Shown here: positions 50,718 through 58,694 of the stretch, in pieces
Layout of the letters: each line of letters starts with the position of its first letter
How positions within the stretch are numbered: the first letter of the stretch is position 1
Origin: Candidatus Zixiibacteriota bacterium
GTDB taxonomy: Bacteria > Zixibacteria > MSB-5A5 > JAABVY01 > JAHJOQ01
Reading direction: 5' to 3'
DNA: 64,000 nucleotides
NCBI GenBank assembly: GCA_018820315.1
Contig: JAHJOQ010000060.1
Coordinates: 1-64,000, forward strand
The notes under the pieces: model-generated
Seen by the model: the letters and a program-made list of their open reading frames with translations, nothing else
Databases searched by the model: none
What the model was told of the DNA's origin: nothing
Position numbers and translations under genes: made by a program

Positions 50718-50797
50718 AGTTTAGCATCCTTCTGATCCTGACAACTGAGCAGAGAGCATTTGAAGAAATAGATATTACTTTAACGGGAGATGTGACA

Positions 50798-51145
50798 ATG
50801 AAACGGGTGATTCTGTCCCTCACCCTCGCGTTGTTGATGCTGGGATTGGTCTGTCCCACGATCTCGCAAGCCGACGACAGCGCGACACCGGCCGCATCGA
50901 GCGCAAGCTCTGCCGCCGCACAAAGCACTCCTACCGCATCAGCCGAAACATTCCCGCCTGAAACTGAGAACAGCTCACTGGGGTCTGTTCTCGATGATCT
51001 CCTTGAAATGGCCTCATCGCTGACCGACCTGTTCGGAGACGATATCGAACCACCAAGCATGTCCGGCACTCCACCCGGAGATCCAGTAATCAGTGACAGT
51101 CGGCCGGATGGGGATGATGGTGGCTGGGATGATGACATGAAATGA
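50798..51145 (+). CDS. Small exported acidic protein, unknown function
   Basis: A 115-residue protein from the ATG at 50798 with GGGAG upstream. Residues 1-25 form a Sec signal peptide (MKRVILSLTLALLMLGLV... ending SQA). The rest is of low complexity: an Ala/Ser/Thr/Pro-rich linker, a short amphipathic stretch SLGSVLDDLLEMASSLTDLF, and an Asp/Gly-rich acidic tail. I recognise no family. It is co-oriented with and 26 bp upstream of the sigma-54 activator of the peptide system, so it may be a cell-surface partner or sensor input for that regulator, but this is a guess. There is only one cysteine, inside the signal peptide. Confidence 0.6.
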   Translation: MKRVILSLTLALLMLGLVCPTISQADDSATPAASSASSAAAQSTPTASAETFPPETENSSLGSVLDDLLEMASSLTDLFGDDIEPPSMSGTPPGDPVISDSRPDGDDGGWDDDMK

Positions 51146-51171: not shown

Positions 51172-53325
51172 ATGGTCTCTCGGACATTCAATGTCACTGA
51201 GCAGAAAGTAGAGAAGCTGATTTCAGAGTCGAATTACTCTGAAGCACTAGCTTTGATTGAACAGCTGCGCAACTCGGTAGTCAAAAGCAACGCGCATATG
51301 TTGAAAGCGCGAATGTTCTATCTCCACTCCAAGTGTCTGTTCAAGTTAGGGAAATACCGCGAAGCTCTATTGAAGATCCGATCAGCAGCGCGTATTGTAC
51401 GTGCAACAAATGACAATGCATTCCTTGCAGATATCAAGCATGTTCTTGGGTTAATCCTCATCCGCCTAGGAAGATTCGGTGATGCAGAGGAAGCCTTGAC
51501 AGAATCCTATGTATTTTACAAGAGGACTCTCGACTACAAATCCTTGTTCTTTCCGCTCAGCCACATGGCTCAGCTTCATTACATTACCGGCAACTTCAGA
51601 CGCTCATGTGAGGTGCTGGAGTTGACAATCAGGTATGCTGCCAAGTACCATTCTCAGGATAGAGTTGACAATGTTAAACGAAACCTGGCAAGAGTCCTCA
51701 CATACATGGGGCAGTTCCAAAAGGCTAGCACTGTCCTGGATTCAGTATCTCCGTCACCATCTGACTTGAGAGCGCAAGCAAGCTCTACATTCCTTGAAGG
51801 TATGATTGCCGTTTTTCGATTGCAGGCCCCGCTCGGACAGTGCCATATTGAATGTGCACTGCGACTATTCTCAGAGTTGAAAATGCCACAAGACATCAAC
51901 GTTTGTCTGGAATATCTGGGGCTTTTGTCGCACTTTGAAAGCAACTACGCCAAAGCACGCGAATGTTACCAGAAAGTTCTCGATATGCCGGAACCGACAG
52001 CATCGGCGGTGGCGCAGACTCTGCGTATGCTGACAGATGTCTATATCGCCGAAGAGAAATTCGACATCGCAGAAGAGACCGCTATCAAAGCCGAGGCATC
52101 AATCACCAAGATCAGCGAACGCATCGAACTCGGTGCGCTCTACCGTGCTTACGGTCAGATATATGCACACAAGAAAGAGAACGATTCCGCTCGCGACTAT
52201 TTCAGTAAGTCGATCGATCTTCTGCGCGAGATAGGTGCGCGCTACGAACTCGCGCTGTCGTATCTCGCAGCCGGCAAGTCTGAGTCATACAGTTTCGATG
52301 AACGCATGCGTCATCTCGAAATGTCGCGGATGTTGTTTATCGAAATGGATGTCCCGAAACGGGTCGAGCAGGTTGATGATGCGGTCAGGATGTTGAGACT
52401 GGATTCGATACCCGATGTAATTCAGAGCGATAGCGAACCTGTCATCATAGCGGGCAGCAAGATCATGAAGAAGGTCCTTGTGCTCGCAAGGAGTGCTGCT
52501 GAGAGTGACATAAATGTCCTATTGACCGGTGAAACCGGCACAGGCAAGGATTTGCTGGCACGCTATGTCCATTGTCAAAGTGGACGAACCGGCGAGTTCA
52601 TCACAGTCAACGCTGCGGCTATTCCGGACAGCATGGTGGAGGCCGAGCTATTTGGCTGTCGGAAGGGCTCATTTACTGGCGCTGAGGAGCACAAACGCGG
52701 ATTGATCGAGGCTGCGGAGGGTGGGACGTTCTACCTGAACGAGATTGCCGACGCGACACTGGTCTTTCAAGCGAAGCTTCTGGAGGTTCTGGAGACACAC
52801 GAAGTCCGAAGACTCGGCGAAACCACCAAACGCAAGGTAGATTTCCGATTGATTTCTGCAACCAACCACGACATCAAGAATCGCATCGCGGAGAGCGAAT
52901 TCCGCGCGGATCTCTTCCACAGACTGAAGGAGCTTCAGATAGAGCTGCCAACACTTAGGCAGAGACTTGAAGAAATTCCATTTTTGCTGACCCATTTTGC
53001 CAGGCAGCTCTTTCCCAATGCCGATAATGATTCGATCTGCAATTTGTCCAAACAAGTTCCTCTCTCACTGACCGAGTACGAATGGCCGGGCAACGTCAGG
53101 GAGTTTAGAGCATTCTTGCACTCGTGTGCAATCGAGAGCAACGGAGACTACGGACGATTCCTGAAGCTTCTCCGCACGGTTGATCGTCACGAAGGAGGCG
53201 AGAGAGACAGGTTGGAGCGTATCCTAAAGGAGACACGTTGGAACCGGAGAGCTACCGCCCGCAGACTGGGAGTTTCCGAGGGCACCGTTCGCAACCGCAT
53301 TAAGAAGTTCAGGCTCTCCCCTTAG
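51172..53325 (+). CDS. TPR-containing sigma-54-dependent activator (TPR-AAA-Fis)
   Basis: A 717-residue enhancer-binding protein. Residues 1 to about 400 are tetratricopeptide-type helical repeats (for example YSEALALIEQL, YREALLKIRSAAR, YAKARECYQKVLDMP) in place of a receiver or GAF domain. The AAA+ domain spans about 420-640, with Walker A TGETGTGKDLLAR near 451, the sigma-54 contact loop GSFTGA near 499 (usually GAFTGA) and Walker B GGTFYLNEI near 518, where the usual aspartate is asparagine. The arginine finger FRADLFHRL is present. The C-terminus (about 678-717) is a Fis-type helix-turn-helix NRRATARRLGVSEGTVRNRI. A -24/-12 promoter and repeated sites lie directly downstream, so its target is almost certainly the peptide operon. 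Confidence 0.88.
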   Translation: MVSRTFNVTEQKVEKLISESNYSEALALIEQLRNSVVKSNAHMLKARMFYLHSKCLFKLGKYREALLKIRSAARIVRATNDNAFLADIKHVLGLILIRLGRFGDAEEALTESYVFYKRTLDYKSLFFPLSHMAQLHYITGNFRRSCEVLELTIRYAAKYHSQDRVDNVKRNLARVLTYMGQFQKASTVLDSVSPSPSDLRAQASSTFLEGMIAVFRLQAPLGQCHIECALRLFSELKMPQDINVCLEYLGLLSHFESNYAKARECYQKVLDMPEPTASAVAQTLRMLTDVYIAEEKFDIAEETAIKAEASITKISERIELGALYRAYGQIYAHKKENDSARDYFSKSIDLLREIGARYELALSYLAAGKSESYSFDERMRHLEMSRMLFIEMDVPKRVEQVDDAVRMLRLDSIPDVIQSDSEPVIIAGSKIMKKVLVLARSAAESDINVLLTGETGTGKDLLARYVHCQSGRTGEFITVNAAAIPDSMVEAELFGCRKGSFTGAEEHKRGLIEAAEGGTFYLNEIADATLVFQAKLLEVLETHEVRRLGETTKRKVDFRLISATNHDIKNRIAESEFRADLFHRLKELQIELPTLRQRLEEIPFLLTHFARQLFPNADNDSICNLSKQVPLSLTEYEWPGNVREFRAFLHSCAIESNGDYGRFLKLLRTVDRHEGGERDRLERILKETRWNRRATARRLGVSEGTVRNRIKKFRLSP

Positions 53326-53536: not shown

Positions 53537-53552
53537 TGGCATTTCATTTGCT
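53537..53552 (+). promoter_or_regulatory. Sigma-54 (-24/-12) promoter of the peptide-maturation operon
   Basis: TGGCAT-N5-TTGCT with GG at 53538-53539 and GC at 53550-53551, the exact 10 bp spacing required for RpoN. The start point would be near 53563, giving a leader of about 58 nt to the radical SAM start at 53622. Confidence 0.8.
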
Positions 53553-53621: not shown

Positions 53622-55004
53622 ATGAAGAAGAGAGTCAAAGCATCAAGGTATAATCATATAGTCACCGGACAGGATGGTGATGTTCTCGGATTTAATGCAA
53701 TGTCGTGCGGACTCGGGAGTATTGATCCCGACAAGCGAGATCGCTTCGCTCAAATGACGGCTTCCAGGGAGCCGTTTGAGATCGACTCGGAAGATGAATT
53801 CTGCAAAGAGTTGTTCAGGGGTGGCTTTCTCATTCCAGAGGACCTGGATGAGCTGAGTTCAATCCGGGCAGCACATTATTCTGCAAGATTCAGTGAACAG
53901 TCCACCGGAATGACCATCATCCCGACTCTCAACTGCAACTTTGCCTGTGACTACTGCTACGAAGACTCAAGCGTACATGTCTCAAAGGACCCTTCCAAGA
54001 GAGCTATGTCCGAGGAGGTTCAGGACAATCTTGTGGAACTCGCGGAGTCCCGGATCAAGGAGAACTCAGTTTTCACAGTGACCTGGTACGGTGGAGAGCC
54101 GCTGCTGCGTCTTGACATTATTGAGTCACTCTCGAAGCGATTCAAGGAGATATGTGAGCGGAAGCAGTCGCGGTATTTTGCCGGAATAATCACGAATGGT
54201 TACTTGTTGACTCCCAGAACCGCAGTGATCCTGGCACAAAACGGTGTGAAATTCTGCCAGGTCACACTTGACGGCGTCAAAGCCGTACATGATTCAAGAA
54301 GACCGCTACGCGGCGGCTCTGGTACATTCGACCGAATAGTTGAGAACGTGACTGCTGTTTCGGAGCAGACGGACTTGACCCTATCCATTCGAATCAATGC
54401 CGACAACAGAAATAGCTCATCCATAAGCGAATTGCTGTGTGACTTACGGAAGCGCGGATTGCACGACCGAGAGAAGGTGAATATCTACTTCGGGCAGGTG
54501 CTTGAGTACTCGAACTCATGTCGTGATACCCCGGATTTCTGTATGGCAAACGAGGAGTTTGCTGACTTTCAGGTCGTTGCGTACAGGAAGGCTCTGGAGC
54601 TCGATTTCAGGATTTCAACATACCCATTCGCCAATTTGGGGAATTGTGGCGCAGTTAAGAGCGTAGCATCGATAATCGAACCGTCCGGTGATGTCCACAA
54701 CTGCTGGAATACGGTCGGAAGGCATGACATGCGAACCGGTGATTTGACTCATGAAGGTGTCGACGCAACTCGGAATTCTATCAACTGGCTTGGTTGGACA
54801 CCTTTCGCGGTGAAATGCAACGACTGCGAAGTTCTTCCCGTTTGTATGGGTGGCTGTCCTTATAGGTCGCTTTTCGGCGCAGACGAGAATGGTGGAGACA
54901 ACGGCACATGCATTTGGTGGAAGTTTAATCTTAGAAAGATGTTGGAATTGTTCAGCGAAGCACAGAAGCGGGGCAAACTTGCTGTTTCGCAACGGAAGAG
55001 GTAA
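53622..55004 (+). CDS. Radical SAM/SPASM peptide maturase
   Basis: About 460 residues from the ATG at 53622, with GGGGAA upstream; a TTG at 53583 would add 13 residues. The N-terminal region of about 95 residues (SRYNHIVTGQDGDVLGFNA ... GGFLIPEDLDEL) resembles the precursor-binding front of peptide maturases. The SAM cluster is C105, C109 and C112 in LNCNFACDYCYE, followed by TWYGGEPLL. The C-terminal SPASM region has NCGAV, GDVHNCWN, KCNDCEVLPVCMGGC and GTCIWW, enough for auxiliary Fe-S clusters. Such enzymes install thioether or C-C crosslinks in ribosomal peptides. Two Cys-rich peptide genes follow directly, making a RiPP maturase far more likely than a sulfatase-maturating enzyme; no sulfatase is present. 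Confidence 0.85.
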   Translation: MKKRVKASRYNHIVTGQDGDVLGFNAMSCGLGSIDPDKRDRFAQMTASREPFEIDSEDEFCKELFRGGFLIPEDLDELSSIRAAHYSARFSEQSTGMTIIPTLNCNFACDYCYEDSSVHVSKDPSKRAMSEEVQDNLVELAESRIKENSVFTVTWYGGEPLLRLDIIESLSKRFKEICERKQSRYFAGIITNGYLLTPRTAVILAQNGVKFCQVTLDGVKAVHDSRRPLRGGSGTFDRIVENVTAVSEQTDLTLSIRINADNRNSSSISELLCDLRKRGLHDREKVNIYFGQVLEYSNSCRDTPDFCMANEEFADFQVVAYRKALELDFRISTYPFANLGNCGAVKSVASIIEPSGDVHNCWNTVGRHDMRTGDLTHEGVDATRNSINWLGWTPFAVKCNDCEVLPVCMGGCPYRSLFGADENGGDNGTCIWWKFNLRKMLELFSEAQKRGKLAVSQRKR

Positions 55005-55037: not shown

Positions 55038-55060
55038 CAAATCACTCAAAGGAGGTTCAG

Positions 55061-55204
55061 ATGAACTGGTTGGTGATCCCAATGCGTTCGGGTGACTTAG
55101 GCACTGTTTGTAGCATCGTCATATGCTGCAGTCAGGCATGTTTCTTCGATGTACATCCTTGCGTCCCCAACGCAGGTTGTTTCACAGATCCTGTGGTGCG
55201 CTAA
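55061..55204 (+). CDS. Cys-rich precursor peptide 1 (MNWLVxP family)
   Basis: A 47-residue gene with a perfect SD (AAAGGAGG, six bases before ATG). The start MNWLVIP is shared with the second small gene. After a short Gly-containing region come six cysteines: C17, C22, C23, C27, C34 and C40, with core segments VCSIVICCSQACFF and PCVPNAGCF. The size, tandem paralogue, strong ribosome binding site and position between a radical SAM/SPASM maturase and a protease/ABC exporter identify it as the probable modification substrate. It is shorter than usual gene-calling cut-offs. Which residues are crosslinked, and where the leader ends, is unknown. I do not recognise a described RiPP family with this beginning. 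Confidence 0.8.
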   Translation: MNWLVIPMRSGDLGTVCSIVICCSQACFFDVHPCVPNAGCFTDPVVR

Positions 55205-55278
55205 GCGAAATGTGGAAGGTCAAGAATAACCTTGCCGCGTTAGACTGAAACGATTTTATTAAGAGAAAGGGCAATTCT

Positions 55279-55419
55279 ATGAACTGGCTTGTTAATCCAT
55301 CAGGTTCGCCGATCAAGGGTGGAGGTCCTGAATGCGTAATTCTACCTTGGATATGTATTAGTCTCTGTTTGCTCAACTGTGACTATTGTCTCGTTTACTT
55401 CTACGACGATCTAAAGTAG
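55279..55419 (+). CDS. Cys-rich precursor peptide 2 (MNWLVxP family)
   Basis: A 46-residue gene with AAAGGG eight bases upstream of ATG. It starts MNWLVNP like precursor 1, then a Gly/Pro/Ser region (SGSPIKGGGPE) and a core with five cysteines: C19, C26, C30, C34 and C37, the last four in CISLCLLNCDYC with spacing 3-3-2. The tail is aromatic and acidic (YFYDDLK). The conserved first seven residues and divergent cores are what is expected when one maturase serves two products. Intergenic distance from precursor 1 is 74 bp, with a small AAGGT/ACCTT hairpin. The downstream protease frame can be extended to overlap this gene, but its likely start is later. Confidence 0.78.
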   Translation: MNWLVNPSGSPIKGGGPECVILPWICISLCLLNCDYCLVYFYDDLK

Positions 55420-55445
55420 TAGTTGAGTCGGTGAAGATCCTGAGA

Positions 55446-56183
55446 ATGCGAGAAGGATTCATAAGCGCTGTGGCACTCGGAAGTTTTGTTCGACCGTTTG
55501 ATCGATTGCATAGGCGGGAAGCTGGCTTGCTCTGCGTGTGCATGGTCTACGTCATCGGCGGTGCCGTGAGCAATGTGGTTCAAGCATCACAGGTTGATTT
55601 GACCATACTTGCTGCTGTGCAGTATCTGATGGTGGCGTTTTGGGTCATCCTGACGGCAGCGGCAATCAGGTTTGCCGTGGTATCGGGAGCCGATGTTTCC
55701 CGGTATGGACTCTCTGGAGGGGTCGTTAGCTGGACGACAGTCATCTTCTGCTCTGCTTACACTATCTATGCTTTCACCAGCCGTTCGTCCATCCTTGTTC
55801 CACCGTTGCTCGGCACTTGGTTAGGTCTGTTCGGTGTTGTTGTCGAGGAGGTTGTGTTTCGCGTGATTTTGGTGCACCTGTTCAGGAAGCTACTCGGGCC
55901 GCTGAACCACAGCCTGTTTTACTCGATTCTCCTCAGCAGCCTGATCTGGTCATCTGTTCACATTCCTACGAAGGACTTCTCACTTGTAATCGGGCTATTC
56001 ATAACGGCAATACTTGTGTCGACGTTTTACTGGTATACTCGAAGTCTCCTGCTTCCGATCTGGTTGCATGCCTTGGCTAACACGGGATTCGTTGGTGCGG
56101 GTGTGGCGGTGGTCCTGTATACTGCTGTCCTGGTTGTCCTGCGTTTCACCCGACATCGTAACAAGGTTGCACAGATGTCATGA
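55446..56183 (+). CDS. CPBP-family intramembrane metalloprotease (Abi/CAAX type)
   Basis: About 245 residues from the ATG at 55446; a GTG at 55431 or a TTG overlapping precursor 2 are alternatives. It is an integral membrane protein with about seven hydrophobic segments. CPBP motifs: EEVVFR (glutamate pair and arginine), SLIWSSVHI (histidine) and LHALANTGF (HxxxN), all near membrane segments. CPBP proteases are often found in bacteriocin and RiPP operons, where they cleave leaders or give immunity. Here it is the obvious candidate for removing the MNWLVxP leader, or for self-protection. It overlaps the ABC ATPase gene by 4 bp. Confidence 0.83.
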   Translation: MREGFISAVALGSFVRPFDRLHRREAGLLCVCMVYVIGGAVSNVVQASQVDLTILAAVQYLMVAFWVILTAAAIRFAVVSGADVSRYGLSGGVVSWTTVIFCSAYTIYAFTSRSSILVPPLLGTWLGLFGVVVEEVVFRVILVHLFRKLLGPLNHSLFYSILLSSLIWSSVHIPTKDFSLVIGLFITAILVSTFYWYTRSLLLPIWLHALANTGFVGAGVAVVLYTAVLVVLRFTRHRNKVAQMS

Positions 56184-57130
56184 TCACTCTCAACAACATA
56201 TGCTACCGCTATCCGAGAGCGGAGCGGTCTGCTCTCGATCGAGTTACTCTGACCGTTCGCCCCGGTGAGATATTCACTCTGCTCGGTCCCAATGGTGCCG
56301 GCAAGACTACGCTGATACGCATACTCTCCGGATTAATTATCCCACAGCAGGGGCAGGCATCCATCTGTGGGTACGACACGCTCAGAGATCAGTATGCCGC
56401 AAGGCAGCCACTCGGGTTGGTACTCGGCGACGAACGGACATTCTACTACCGACTTTCCGGGAGGCAGAACCTCGAGTTCTTCGGTGGGCTGCTGGGGCTA
56501 CGAGGCAGACGCATTGCCGACCGGATCAATGAAGTGCTGGAGATGGTCGGCATGACGGACTCCGCGAAGCATCCGTTTATGAAGTTCAGTACTGGAATGA
56601 GAAAGCGTCTGAACTTCGCGCGTGCGCTTCTGTCGGATCCGTCTGTCTATCTGCTCGATGAACCGAACAGCGGCGTCGATCCTGCGTCTGCGTCCCATAT
56701 CAGGGAGATCATCCTCGACCTGAAAAAAAGGGGCAAGACAATACTTCTCACGACGCACAACCTTCAGGAAGCCGAGAGATTGTCTGACGCGATAGGATTT
56801 CTGAAAGCCGGAATCTTGCTTCGAACGGGATCTGTCTCGGAGTTCAGAAGCGGTATCGAACGGAGCTGCATATCCGCGATTTTCGGCGCGAATGGGACTC
56901 CAATCAATGTTGAGATGGAGAAGCTCGTCAAGAGAATCAGAGTCTGCAGCCCGGACAGCAACGTGACCGTGAACGACAATCGTATCAGCATTTCATTGAG
57001 CGACAAGCTCGAAGCAAATGAAGTGATCAATCTGCTTTCCGGATCTTCGCTTCACCTGGAGGACGTCCGCTATGGAGACGCATCCCTCGAAGATGTCTTC
57101 TTCCACTTGGCTGGAGGCGGCAATGTATAA
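56180..57130 (+). CDS. ABC transporter ATP-binding protein
   Basis: A 316-residue ATPase. Walker A is GPNGAGKTTLIR (about residues 37-48), the signature loop is degenerate (KFSTGMRKRL instead of LSGGQ), Walker B is VYLLDEPNSGVDP and the switch histidine is in LLTTHNLQEAE. The C-terminal 90 residues are the regulatory extension typical of ABC-2 exporters of the DrrA/CcmA type. It forms a transporter with the following permease, probably exporting the modified peptide or giving immunity. It overlaps the protease gene by 4 bp and the permease gene by 8 bp, so the group is translationally coupled. Confidence 0.9.
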   Translation: MITLNNICYRYPRAERSALDRVTLTVRPGEIFTLLGPNGAGKTTLIRILSGLIIPQQGQASICGYDTLRDQYAARQPLGLVLGDERTFYYRLSGRQNLEFFGGLLGLRGRRIADRINEVLEMVGMTDSAKHPFMKFSTGMRKRLNFARALLSDPSVYLLDEPNSGVDPASASHIREIILDLKKRGKTILLTTHNLQEAERLSDAIGFLKAGILLRTGSVSEFRSGIERSCISAIFGANGTPINVEMEKLVKRIRVCSPDSNVTVNDNRISISLSDKLEANEVINLLSGSSLHLEDVRYGDASLEDVFFHLAGGGNV

Positions 57131-57926
57131 AGGCTACCTGTTCATCAAGCGTGGCATTGTAACAATGCTGAGCTACAGAACTGCGCTGGTGCTGGGCATC
57201 GTCGGAAGCTTCATCGGACTGCTGCAATTCTCTTTCATGGGGAGGTTCCTCACGGAAGGGAACAGTTTTCCGGCTCTGAACGCATACGGTGGAAACTTGC
57301 TTGCTTATCTGATAATCGGTACGGCGTTCACGAGCTTTGTTGGAGTCTCTCTCGGTTCGTTTCAGAACACCATCAGAAGCGAGCAACAGATGGGTACTCT
57401 TGAGTACCTGCTGATCACAAACACGAAGCTAGAGCTTCTACTCTCGTACTCAGGATTGGTCAGTTTCCTCGGTACGCTCCTGAATGTCACGCTGCTATTA
57501 CTTGTAGTAATCTTCGTCTTTGACATTCCCATGGAGGTGAATCTGGCTGGGGCCGCAGTCTGCATTCTGCTCACGATCACGTCGCTCTCGGGAATTGGCT
57601 TGATGGGTGCGGGAATTATCATGGTGACCAAAGTTGGGGACCCTGTGACATGGATATTCACAACGCTCACGGGTCTGCTAAGCGGCGTACTGTTTCCGGT
57701 GGAATACCTGCCCGGAGCGTTGAAAGCCATATCGATGCTTCTGCCGACTACACATGCCCTTCATGCACTGCGACTCACTCTGACGCAGAATGCGTCTATC
57801 GAGCAAATTTCTTCCCAGCTGCTCTTTCTCTTGATAGCATCCGCAATCACAGTCCCGTTGGGATTCTTCTCAATACGTGCCGGATTTAACAAGGCCAGAA
57901 GGGATGGTACGCTGGCACATTACTGA
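57123..57926 (+). CDS. ABC-2 type transporter permease
   Basis: 267 residues from the ATG at 57123, which overlaps the ATPase stop by 8 bp; an in-frame start at 57072 lies inside the ATPase gene and is disregarded. Six hydrophobic segments are present. The final third has FTTLTGLLSGVLFPVEYLPG, a conserved ABC-2 permease feature, followed by LLPTTHALHALRLTL. Together with the ATPase it makes one complete half-transporter pair. Export of mature peptide, self-immunity, or both are plausible roles. Confidence 0.87.
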   Translation: MYKGYLFIKRGIVTMLSYRTALVLGIVGSFIGLLQFSFMGRFLTEGNSFPALNAYGGNLLAYLIIGTAFTSFVGVSLGSFQNTIRSEQQMGTLEYLLITNTKLELLLSYSGLVSFLGTLLNVTLLLLVVIFVFDIPMEVNLAGAAVCILLTITSLSGIGLMGAGIIMVTKVGDPVTWIFTTLTGLLSGVLFPVEYLPGALKAISMLLPTTHALHALRLTLTQNASIEQISSQLLFLLIASAITVPLGFFSIRAGFNKARRDGTLAHY

Positions 57927-57947: not shown

Positions 57948-58694
57948 ATGTCCAATGAAGCGCTCGTCAGGGAGACCGGAACCGAGATGGTCAGGCGACC
58001 CAGTACTTGGAGCGACGTCGTGAATCTGTTCGTCTCTCCACGCTCGACCTTTGAATCAGTTTCTCGGAGGGCTCGATGGGTTATACCCTTCCTGCTTCTG
58101 GTACTGTGCGCTGTAGTCTTTGAAGTCTCCGTGAGTGGGACCAGAATGGACGATCTTAAGTTACAGGTCAAGAACGATCCGGATATGTCGCAGGATGATA
58201 TCCAGCATCGTCTCGACAATATCGAAAACCAACGGTCTCCGGAATTGGTCAGTCTCCGAACCGGGCTTGGTGTCCTCGCGTTGGGCGTGCTGGAATTCGC
58301 CAAGCTACTTGGATTGTCGATTGTGTTGCTGCTTTTCTGCATGCTGTTCGTGAGCGAGTTGAGGTTCGTAGCGATCCTGTCGATCTGCGCATTCAGTTCA
58401 CTGATATTGATCCCCGAGATAGCCTTGAAGATTCCTTTGATTCTCTTGAAAGGGACGACTCATATATGGTTCAGCCCGGCAGCACTCTTTTCCGGCATGG
58501 ATGAGAATAACCTCATGTTCAGATTCATGCAGAGCATCGACATCTTTACTATTTGGAAGATGATTCTAGTCGGAATGGGATTACATACGGTGTTCGGCAT
58601 TGCGAAATCAAAGTCCTACTTAATTGTGACGGTTCTCTTCCTACTTTGGGTCGCTGGTCACTCTCTGCTGGGAGGGCTGATACATATAGCCTAA
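57948..58694 (+). CDS. YIP1-family membrane protein
   Basis: About 248 residues from the ATG at 57948 with GGGAGG upstream. The soluble N-terminus has WSDVVNLFVSPRSTFESVSRR, the phrase that opens bacterial YIP1-domain proteins, and five hydrophobic segments follow. The family has no well-defined bacterial function; it is often co-encoded with ABC-2 transporters. It ends the peptide operon, 21 bp after the permease, and may help transporter assembly or immunity. Confidence 0.75.
   Translation: MSNEALVRETGTEMVRRPSTWSDVVNLFVSPRSTFESVSRRARWVIPFLLLVLCAVVFEVSVSGTRMDDLKLQVKNDPDMSQDDIQHRLDNIENQRSPELVSLRTGLGVLALGVLEFAKLLGLSIVLLLFCMLFVSELRFVAILSICAFSSLILIPEIALKIPLILLKGTTHIWFSPAALFSGMDENNLMFRFMQSIDIFTIWKMILVGMGLHTVFGIAKSKSYLIVTVLFLLWVAGHSLLGGLIHIA

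Follow-up and report, generated by a model that had tools for sequence, protein, structure and literature searches.

A Putative Two-Peptide RiPP Locus with a Shared N-Terminal Tag and a Single Radical SAM/SPASM Maturase in Candidatus Zixiibacteriota

Gene Organization and Transcriptional Control

The window, i.e., the whole stretch of 64,000 nucleotides analysed here (positions 1 to 64,000 of contig JAHJOQ010000060.1, forward strand, from the Candidatus Zixiibacteriota assembly GCA_018820315.1), encodes on its forward strand a radical SAM/SPASM peptide maturase of 460 residues (53622..55004). Directly 3' of this gene lie two short ORFs, designated precursor peptide A (55061..55204; 47 aa, 6 Cys; MNWLVIPMRSGDLGTVCSIVICCSQACFFDVHPCVPNAGCFTDPVVR) and precursor peptide B (55279..55419; 46 aa, 5 Cys; MNWLVNPSGSPIKGGGPECVILPWICISLCLLNCDYCLVYFYDDLK), and both have orthologues in two other genomes of the phylum, G078 and G021. 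They are followed on the same strand by genes for a CPBP/Rce1-like intramembrane protease (55446..56183, with an alternative GTG start at 55431; EEVVFR, H and H motifs; Pfam PF02517, 1.3e-14), a DrrA-like ABC transporter ATPase (56180..57130), an ABC-2 type permease (57126..57926) and a Yip1/YknW-type membrane protein (57951..58694; Pfam Yip1, 1.3e-9; 71 bits with the YknW model NF052650, cut-off 110). The CPBP protein, whose gene occupies the same place in G078 and G021, is a candidate leader protease or immunity protein. The ATPase is 50% identical to its counterparts in both genomes, the permease 71% (G078) and 69% (G021), and the Yip1-type protein 32-33%; the gene order rSAM-A-B-CPBP-ABC-ABC-Yip1 is identical in the window, G078 and G021. 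No relatives of the CPBP, ABC or Yip1 genes were detected within about 9 kb of two related loci that encode a single peptide (G094 and G060). A relative of the same ABC permease and ATPase (47% and 37%) was also observed in G028 (L039 12799-14372), near a cluster of another maturase clade with MxYLIDP peptides (clade III), hinting that the exporter belongs to a wider family.

The gene at 51172..53325 (+ strand) encodes a regulator composed of TPR, sigma-54 activator (AAA+) and Fis-type HTH domains (Pfam Sigma54_activat, 7.7e-58; TPR_12; HTH_8), which likely activates the operon. A full-length relative of this regulator (36% identity over 717 aa) was found in G087 beside the orthologous maturase. 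Paired with the activator gene is an ORF on the same strand (50792..51145) whose small product apparently has a signal peptide at its N-terminus; it had no significant family match in NCBIfam or Pfam, and its membership of the cluster is tentative. An unrelated-looking ORF with a signal peptide likewise precedes the orthologous regulator in G087.

A sigma-54 (-24/-12) promoter, TGGCATTTCATTTGCT, of the GG-N10-GC form was predicted at 53537..53552 (+ strand), 70 bases 5' of the maturase start. It scores 18.0/18.5, a value reached by 0/1000 shuffles, and the 64 kb window contains no other such site on its two strands. Sigma-54 sites at the other relatives were not significant (p 0.115 in G087, >0.5 in the others), so that control by sigma-54 is proposed for the window alone. 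Because the promoter precedes the maturase, an activator gene lies upstream and the remaining genes follow downstream, the maturase, peptide, protease and transporter genes are read as one sigma-54-driven operon with a single predicted transcript.

The Precursor Peptides

The preliminary description of this locus had reported that the two adjacent ORFs both begin with MNWLVxP and had placed the cysteines at positions 17, 22, 23, 27, 34 and 40 of A and 19, 26, 30, 34 and 37 of B; the ORF list agrees on both points. The cysteine spacings are 5,1,4,7,6 in A and 7,4,4,3 in B, and the cores of both peptides are hydrophobic (GRAVY 0.66-0.68) with a net negative charge. Precursor A is preceded by the Shine-Dalgarno sequence GGAGG (55051..55055, + strand), and that of precursor B in the window is weak. 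A small inverted repeat (AAGGT...ACCTT, 55214-55235), with no T run after it, was observed between the two ORFs and is a candidate processing or attenuation element.

A scan of the 3.78 Mb home genome located ATGAAYTGGYTNGTNNNNCC at these two sites only, and the reversed control gave none. Across 132 genomes of the phylum there are 4 instances of GGAGG followed by ATG-Asn-Trp-x-[VA]-x-Pro, in every case directly 3' of this type of maturase, with 0 in the control; a looser Trp-tag pattern that dispensed with the Shine-Dalgarno sequence matched the control as often as the real sequences and was uninformative. The residues shared by A and B use different codons (Leu TTG/CTT, Val GTG/GTT), so the two starts are alike at the protein level. 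Small size is the only point in favour of regarding A and B as chance ORFs, an idea that has essentially no probability, given the empty controls and the conserved orthologues; it is refuted by conservation in the relatives.

Searches of NCBIfam and Pfam assigned neither window peptide to a family. With the Clo7bot peptide model TIGR04333, neither was matched at E<=1, G078 A and G021 B were unmatched at E<=10, and a search of the home genome returned sub-threshold noise only, which was also seen in 12 control genomes. The earlier claim that gene callers would miss both ORFs is probably too strong, because the RefSeq annotation of a Paraclostridium locus includes Clo7bot peptides of 41-53 aa.

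The Maturase and Its Structure

The maturase has the features by which its superfamily is recognized: the CX3CX2C motif and the SPASM cysteines, which are conserved in the alignment, an adjoining precursor, and an N-terminus that is RRE-like by topology. Among NCBIfam models it scores highest with TIGR04463 (342 bits, cut-off 525), followed by TIGR04334 for the Clo7bot maturase (301 bits, cut-off 600) and CefB (229 bits, cut-off 600); the PapB model gives 122 bits, and 5wgg is the best phmmer match. The AlphaFold model (pLDDT 90.5) consists of N-terminal strands and a winged helix, followed by the radical SAM barrel and the SPASM domain. The closest solved folds are CteB (5why, the top match, a SCIFF maturase), TigE (8vpo), anSME and ChlB with bound leader. 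As judged from this model, the N-terminal domain is RRE-like in topology. No solved structure or characterised product was found for this maturase sub-family.

Several further observations concern the maturase genes. The cluster contains one, and the only other match in the home genome is on contig C133, where a second, divergent relative (C133 4983-6335; L033, L049) has ABC-type genes behind it and, upstream, a 70-aa Cys-containing ORF with the start MKYLNEP (GTG; L049 6652-6864, minus strand). About 8 extra residues (CYEDSSVHVSKDPSKRAMS) directly follow CX3CX2C in the maturases of the window's clade (53953-53979 in the window) and are absent from the two other clades. The G021 maturase (L038 9354-10506, minus strand) is split in two, with a TAA inside the reading frame and a gap of about 70 residues between the parts, and both adjoining precursors look intact. 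In the G078 maturase (L004 153-1490) one conserved cluster cysteine is absent from the SPASM domain (CMGG-PY vs CMGGCPY). The interruption in G021 and the cysteine loss in G078 could be assembly errors, or decay or real change.

The Tag across the Phylum and Beyond

Maturase relatives in Ca. Zixiibacteriota fall into three clades supported by the tree. Clade I (support 99/99) comprises the window, G078, G021, G094, G060 and a fragment in G087. Its members are spread over several families and, within the window's own family, the maturase had no match in the three genomes searched besides the home genome (G000); this distribution suggests that the clade I maturase was spread by horizontal transfer.

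The preliminary description had proposed that one enzyme serves both peptides through a shared leader, and had looked to homologous loci for the same start and to the first seven codons for purifying selection. The proposal is supported, and the shared start, whose absence from homologous loci would have refuted it, was found there. In 5/5 clade I loci with downstream flank, M[NKT]W[LI][VA]xP starts were found on one or two peptides behind the maturase (one in G094 and in G060), and the two other clades have versions of their own: MKFIEKP or MRYIVKP in clade II, and MxYLIDP in clade III, where up to four tandem copies occur and the peptides end in PLYGVPP. Among short, Cys-containing ORFs preceded by a Shine-Dalgarno sequence near maturase relatives, the tag M-x-[WFY]-[LI]-x-x-P is present in 43/102 on the sense strand and 0/30 on the antisense strand, an association seen phylum-wide. 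At its conserved positions the tag retains one and the same amino acid, encoded by varying codons (CCA/CCT/CCG/CCC for Pro7; six codons for Leu4 in clade III), which argues that the tag is under selection at the protein level.

The same tag occurs outside the phylum. Known Clo7bot peptides start MKFIKKPARKFEEGYC, and a Paraclostridium plasmid encodes eight tagged peptides, of which seven carry the Clo7bot annotation; MKFI[KR][KQ]P is the start of seven and MKYIVKP that of the remaining one. On a Methylomagnum plasmid, a CefA starting MQYLVQP adjoins a TIGR04463 maturase. This CefA from Methylomagnum ishizawai (L064 3879-5918; about 680 residues) has, behind the tag, long stretches with the appearance of beta-rich folded domains and a tail with a cysteine at every fifth position. 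An unannotated ORF starting MRWILKP (MRWILKPDSKKRDSFVCYLKAPPPPSSGEPDSG), with a good Shine-Dalgarno sequence, was observed on the Thermus thermophilus plasmid pTHTHE1601 (L066 5162), immediately 3' of a radical SAM gene that has IS elements on its flanks. Since Clo7bot, CefA and the Thermus ORF bear the same tag, it can be regarded, on the strength of these sequences, as a hallmark of the maturase superfamily as a whole, and the spellings MNWLVxP, MKFIEKP and MxYLIDP suggest that the form of the tag follows the enzyme clade. Peptides A and B are thus placed, very probably, among the substrates of the maturase. If they were instead small, unmodified, membrane-active peptides with an incidental maturase neighbour, their hydrophobic cores would be accounted for, but not the co-occurrence of tag and enzyme across clades and phyla, and we consider this a very long shot.

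Two Conserved Core Types

Behind the tag, each peptide has a core of its own type. In core A three or four residues separate the first cysteine from CCS (C-x3/4-CCS), and core B ends in CD[YF]C[LF], an aromatic stretch and Y[DN] (CD[YF]C[LF]x[FY][FI]Y[DN]). When the cores were compared without the tag in the three genomes that have both (window, G078 and G021), all six same-type pairs (A-A, B-B) were more similar than composition shuffles (p 0.002-0.044, the weakest being A-A of the window and G078), and 0/9 A-B pairs fell below 0.05, the lowest value being 0.052, within G021. The cores had been described as variable and completely divergent; A and B do differ from each other, but each type is conserved across the three genomes. 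Because A cores resemble A only and B cores B only, a conserved pair replaces the variable core, and the peptides appear as two constant partners and not as members of a pool of hypervariable substrates.

The two peptides probably represent a conserved two-peptide system. In another reading, the locus would belong to a promiscuous Clo7bot-type pathway in which one enzyme handles many substrates, and A and B would be independent products with a tag in common and cores free to diversify. The Clo7bot locus with its eight tagged peptides, the tandem copies of clade III and the single-peptide loci G094 and G060 are in line with such a pathway. It is nevertheless unlikely, as there are exactly two types, kept in the same order in three genomes and accompanied by accessory genes that are conserved as well.

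Precursor B of the window contains a C-x3-C-x-Y-C motif (55366-55389; chance on shuffling 0.005) that resembles the cluster motif of the enzyme, CNFACDYC; C-x3-C-x-[FY]-C is present in the window and G021, and G078 B has C-x4-C-x2-C instead. The products might accordingly be metal- or Fe-S-binding, redox or signalling peptides, secreted for a physiological role and not toxins. Many cysteines, net negative cores, the radical SAM cluster motif in two of the B peptides and sigma-54 control, which is typical for physiological regulation, all fit this idea; it is rather improbable, however, considering that the motif is not strict and that the CPBP and YknW-like accessory set resembles bacteriocin immunity and export. 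A bolder proposal, in which a single radical SAM enzyme reads a seven-residue cross-phylum tag, spelled differently in each clade, and matures two structurally different partners, of which B may hold an Fe-S cluster, is a long shot.

Comparison with Known Systems

On sequence grounds the system falls within the Clo7bot/CefA/TIGR04463 maturase superfamily and below every NCBIfam cut-off, and is thus a new sub-type, not a new kind. Clo7bot (TIGR04333/TIGR04334) likewise has tandem Cys-rich peptides whose N-termini bear the tag M-x-[FY]-I-x-x-P, next to the gene for a homologous radical SAM/SPASM enzyme; the Paraclostridium maturase is 34.5% identical over 98% of the window maturase as query, and the tag recurs here with Trp replacing Phe/Tyr at position 3. 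The window differs from Clo7bot in its Trp3, its two fixed core types, its other accessory genes and its sigma-54 control, as well as in a maturase score under the TIGR04334 cut-off and in peptides without a TIGR04333 match. TIGR04463 is the best-scoring maturase model and the Methylomagnum CefA starts with the same kind of tag, but the window maturase stays under the cut-offs of both TIGR04463 and CefB, and the window peptides, at about 47 residues with irregular cysteine spacing, are unlike CefA with its long tail of fixed spacing; the pattern of a cysteine at every fifth position was found in neither A nor B. The ranthipeptide/SCIFF (CteA-CteB) and PapA-PapB systems are related through the top fold, the best phmmer match and the PapB model score given above, whereas CteB is only 17% identical to the window maturase in sequence and the window peptides have neither a SCIFF nor a CX3D repeat pattern.

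Thuricin CD, a two-component sactibiotic, offers an analogy: it is encoded by adjacent genes for two different Cys peptides (TrnA/TrnB) and is matured by radical SAM/SPASM enzymes with an RRE (PMC12093266). Two such enzymes, TrnC and TrnD, are needed there as a complex, whereas the window cluster has one enzyme gene. Two distinct conserved precursors encoded together, the mark of a two-component radical SAM peptide, were found in three genomes.

Proposed Mechanism

In the proposed scheme, the adjoining TPR activator would fire the sigma-54 promoter, from which the maturase, A, B, the protease, the ABC exporter and the Yip1 protein would be transcribed jointly. The heptapeptide MNWLVxP would serve as a recognition tag and bind, probably in the form of a beta strand, to the RRE-like domain at the N-terminus of the maturase. 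An RRE of the same kind was described for TrnC of thuricin CD (PMC12093266), and in PapB-type maturases the leader is expected to dock on the RRE (PMC9413430). The maturase may then cross-link the core cysteines in A and B, most likely as thioethers; the CPBP protease would trim the leader, probably, or confer immunity; and the ABC and Yip1 proteins would export the peptide pair and/or shield the producer. YknW is a Yip1-type component of the Bacillus YknWXYZ pump, which exports the SDP peptide toxin and works against it (PMC4887032), and an immunity role would fit the Yip1 protein because YknW belongs to that pump. By analogy with two-peptide bacteriocins, the products of A and B may work jointly.

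As a whole, the explanation that A and B form a RiPP substrate pair is likely, and this grade applies to the pair and not to each step of the scheme. A secreted bioactive pair is favoured because export and candidate immunity genes are in the predicted operon, and antimicrobial action of the peptides is possible, though somewhat doubtful.

Significance

The locus adds a sub-family from an uncultured phylum to the maturase superfamily. In the literature library searched, no paper naming Clo7bot products was found, nor any for FlmE/OhkG. The results suggest a rule by which substrates are recognizable by M-x-aromatic-[LI]-x-x-P, in a spelling that tracks the enzyme clade; such a rule makes leader recognition testable by a few point mutants and finds precursors where peptide models are absent. 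Should one radical SAM enzyme indeed serve a conserved pair, the system would be a simpler counterpart of thuricin CD, which needs two.
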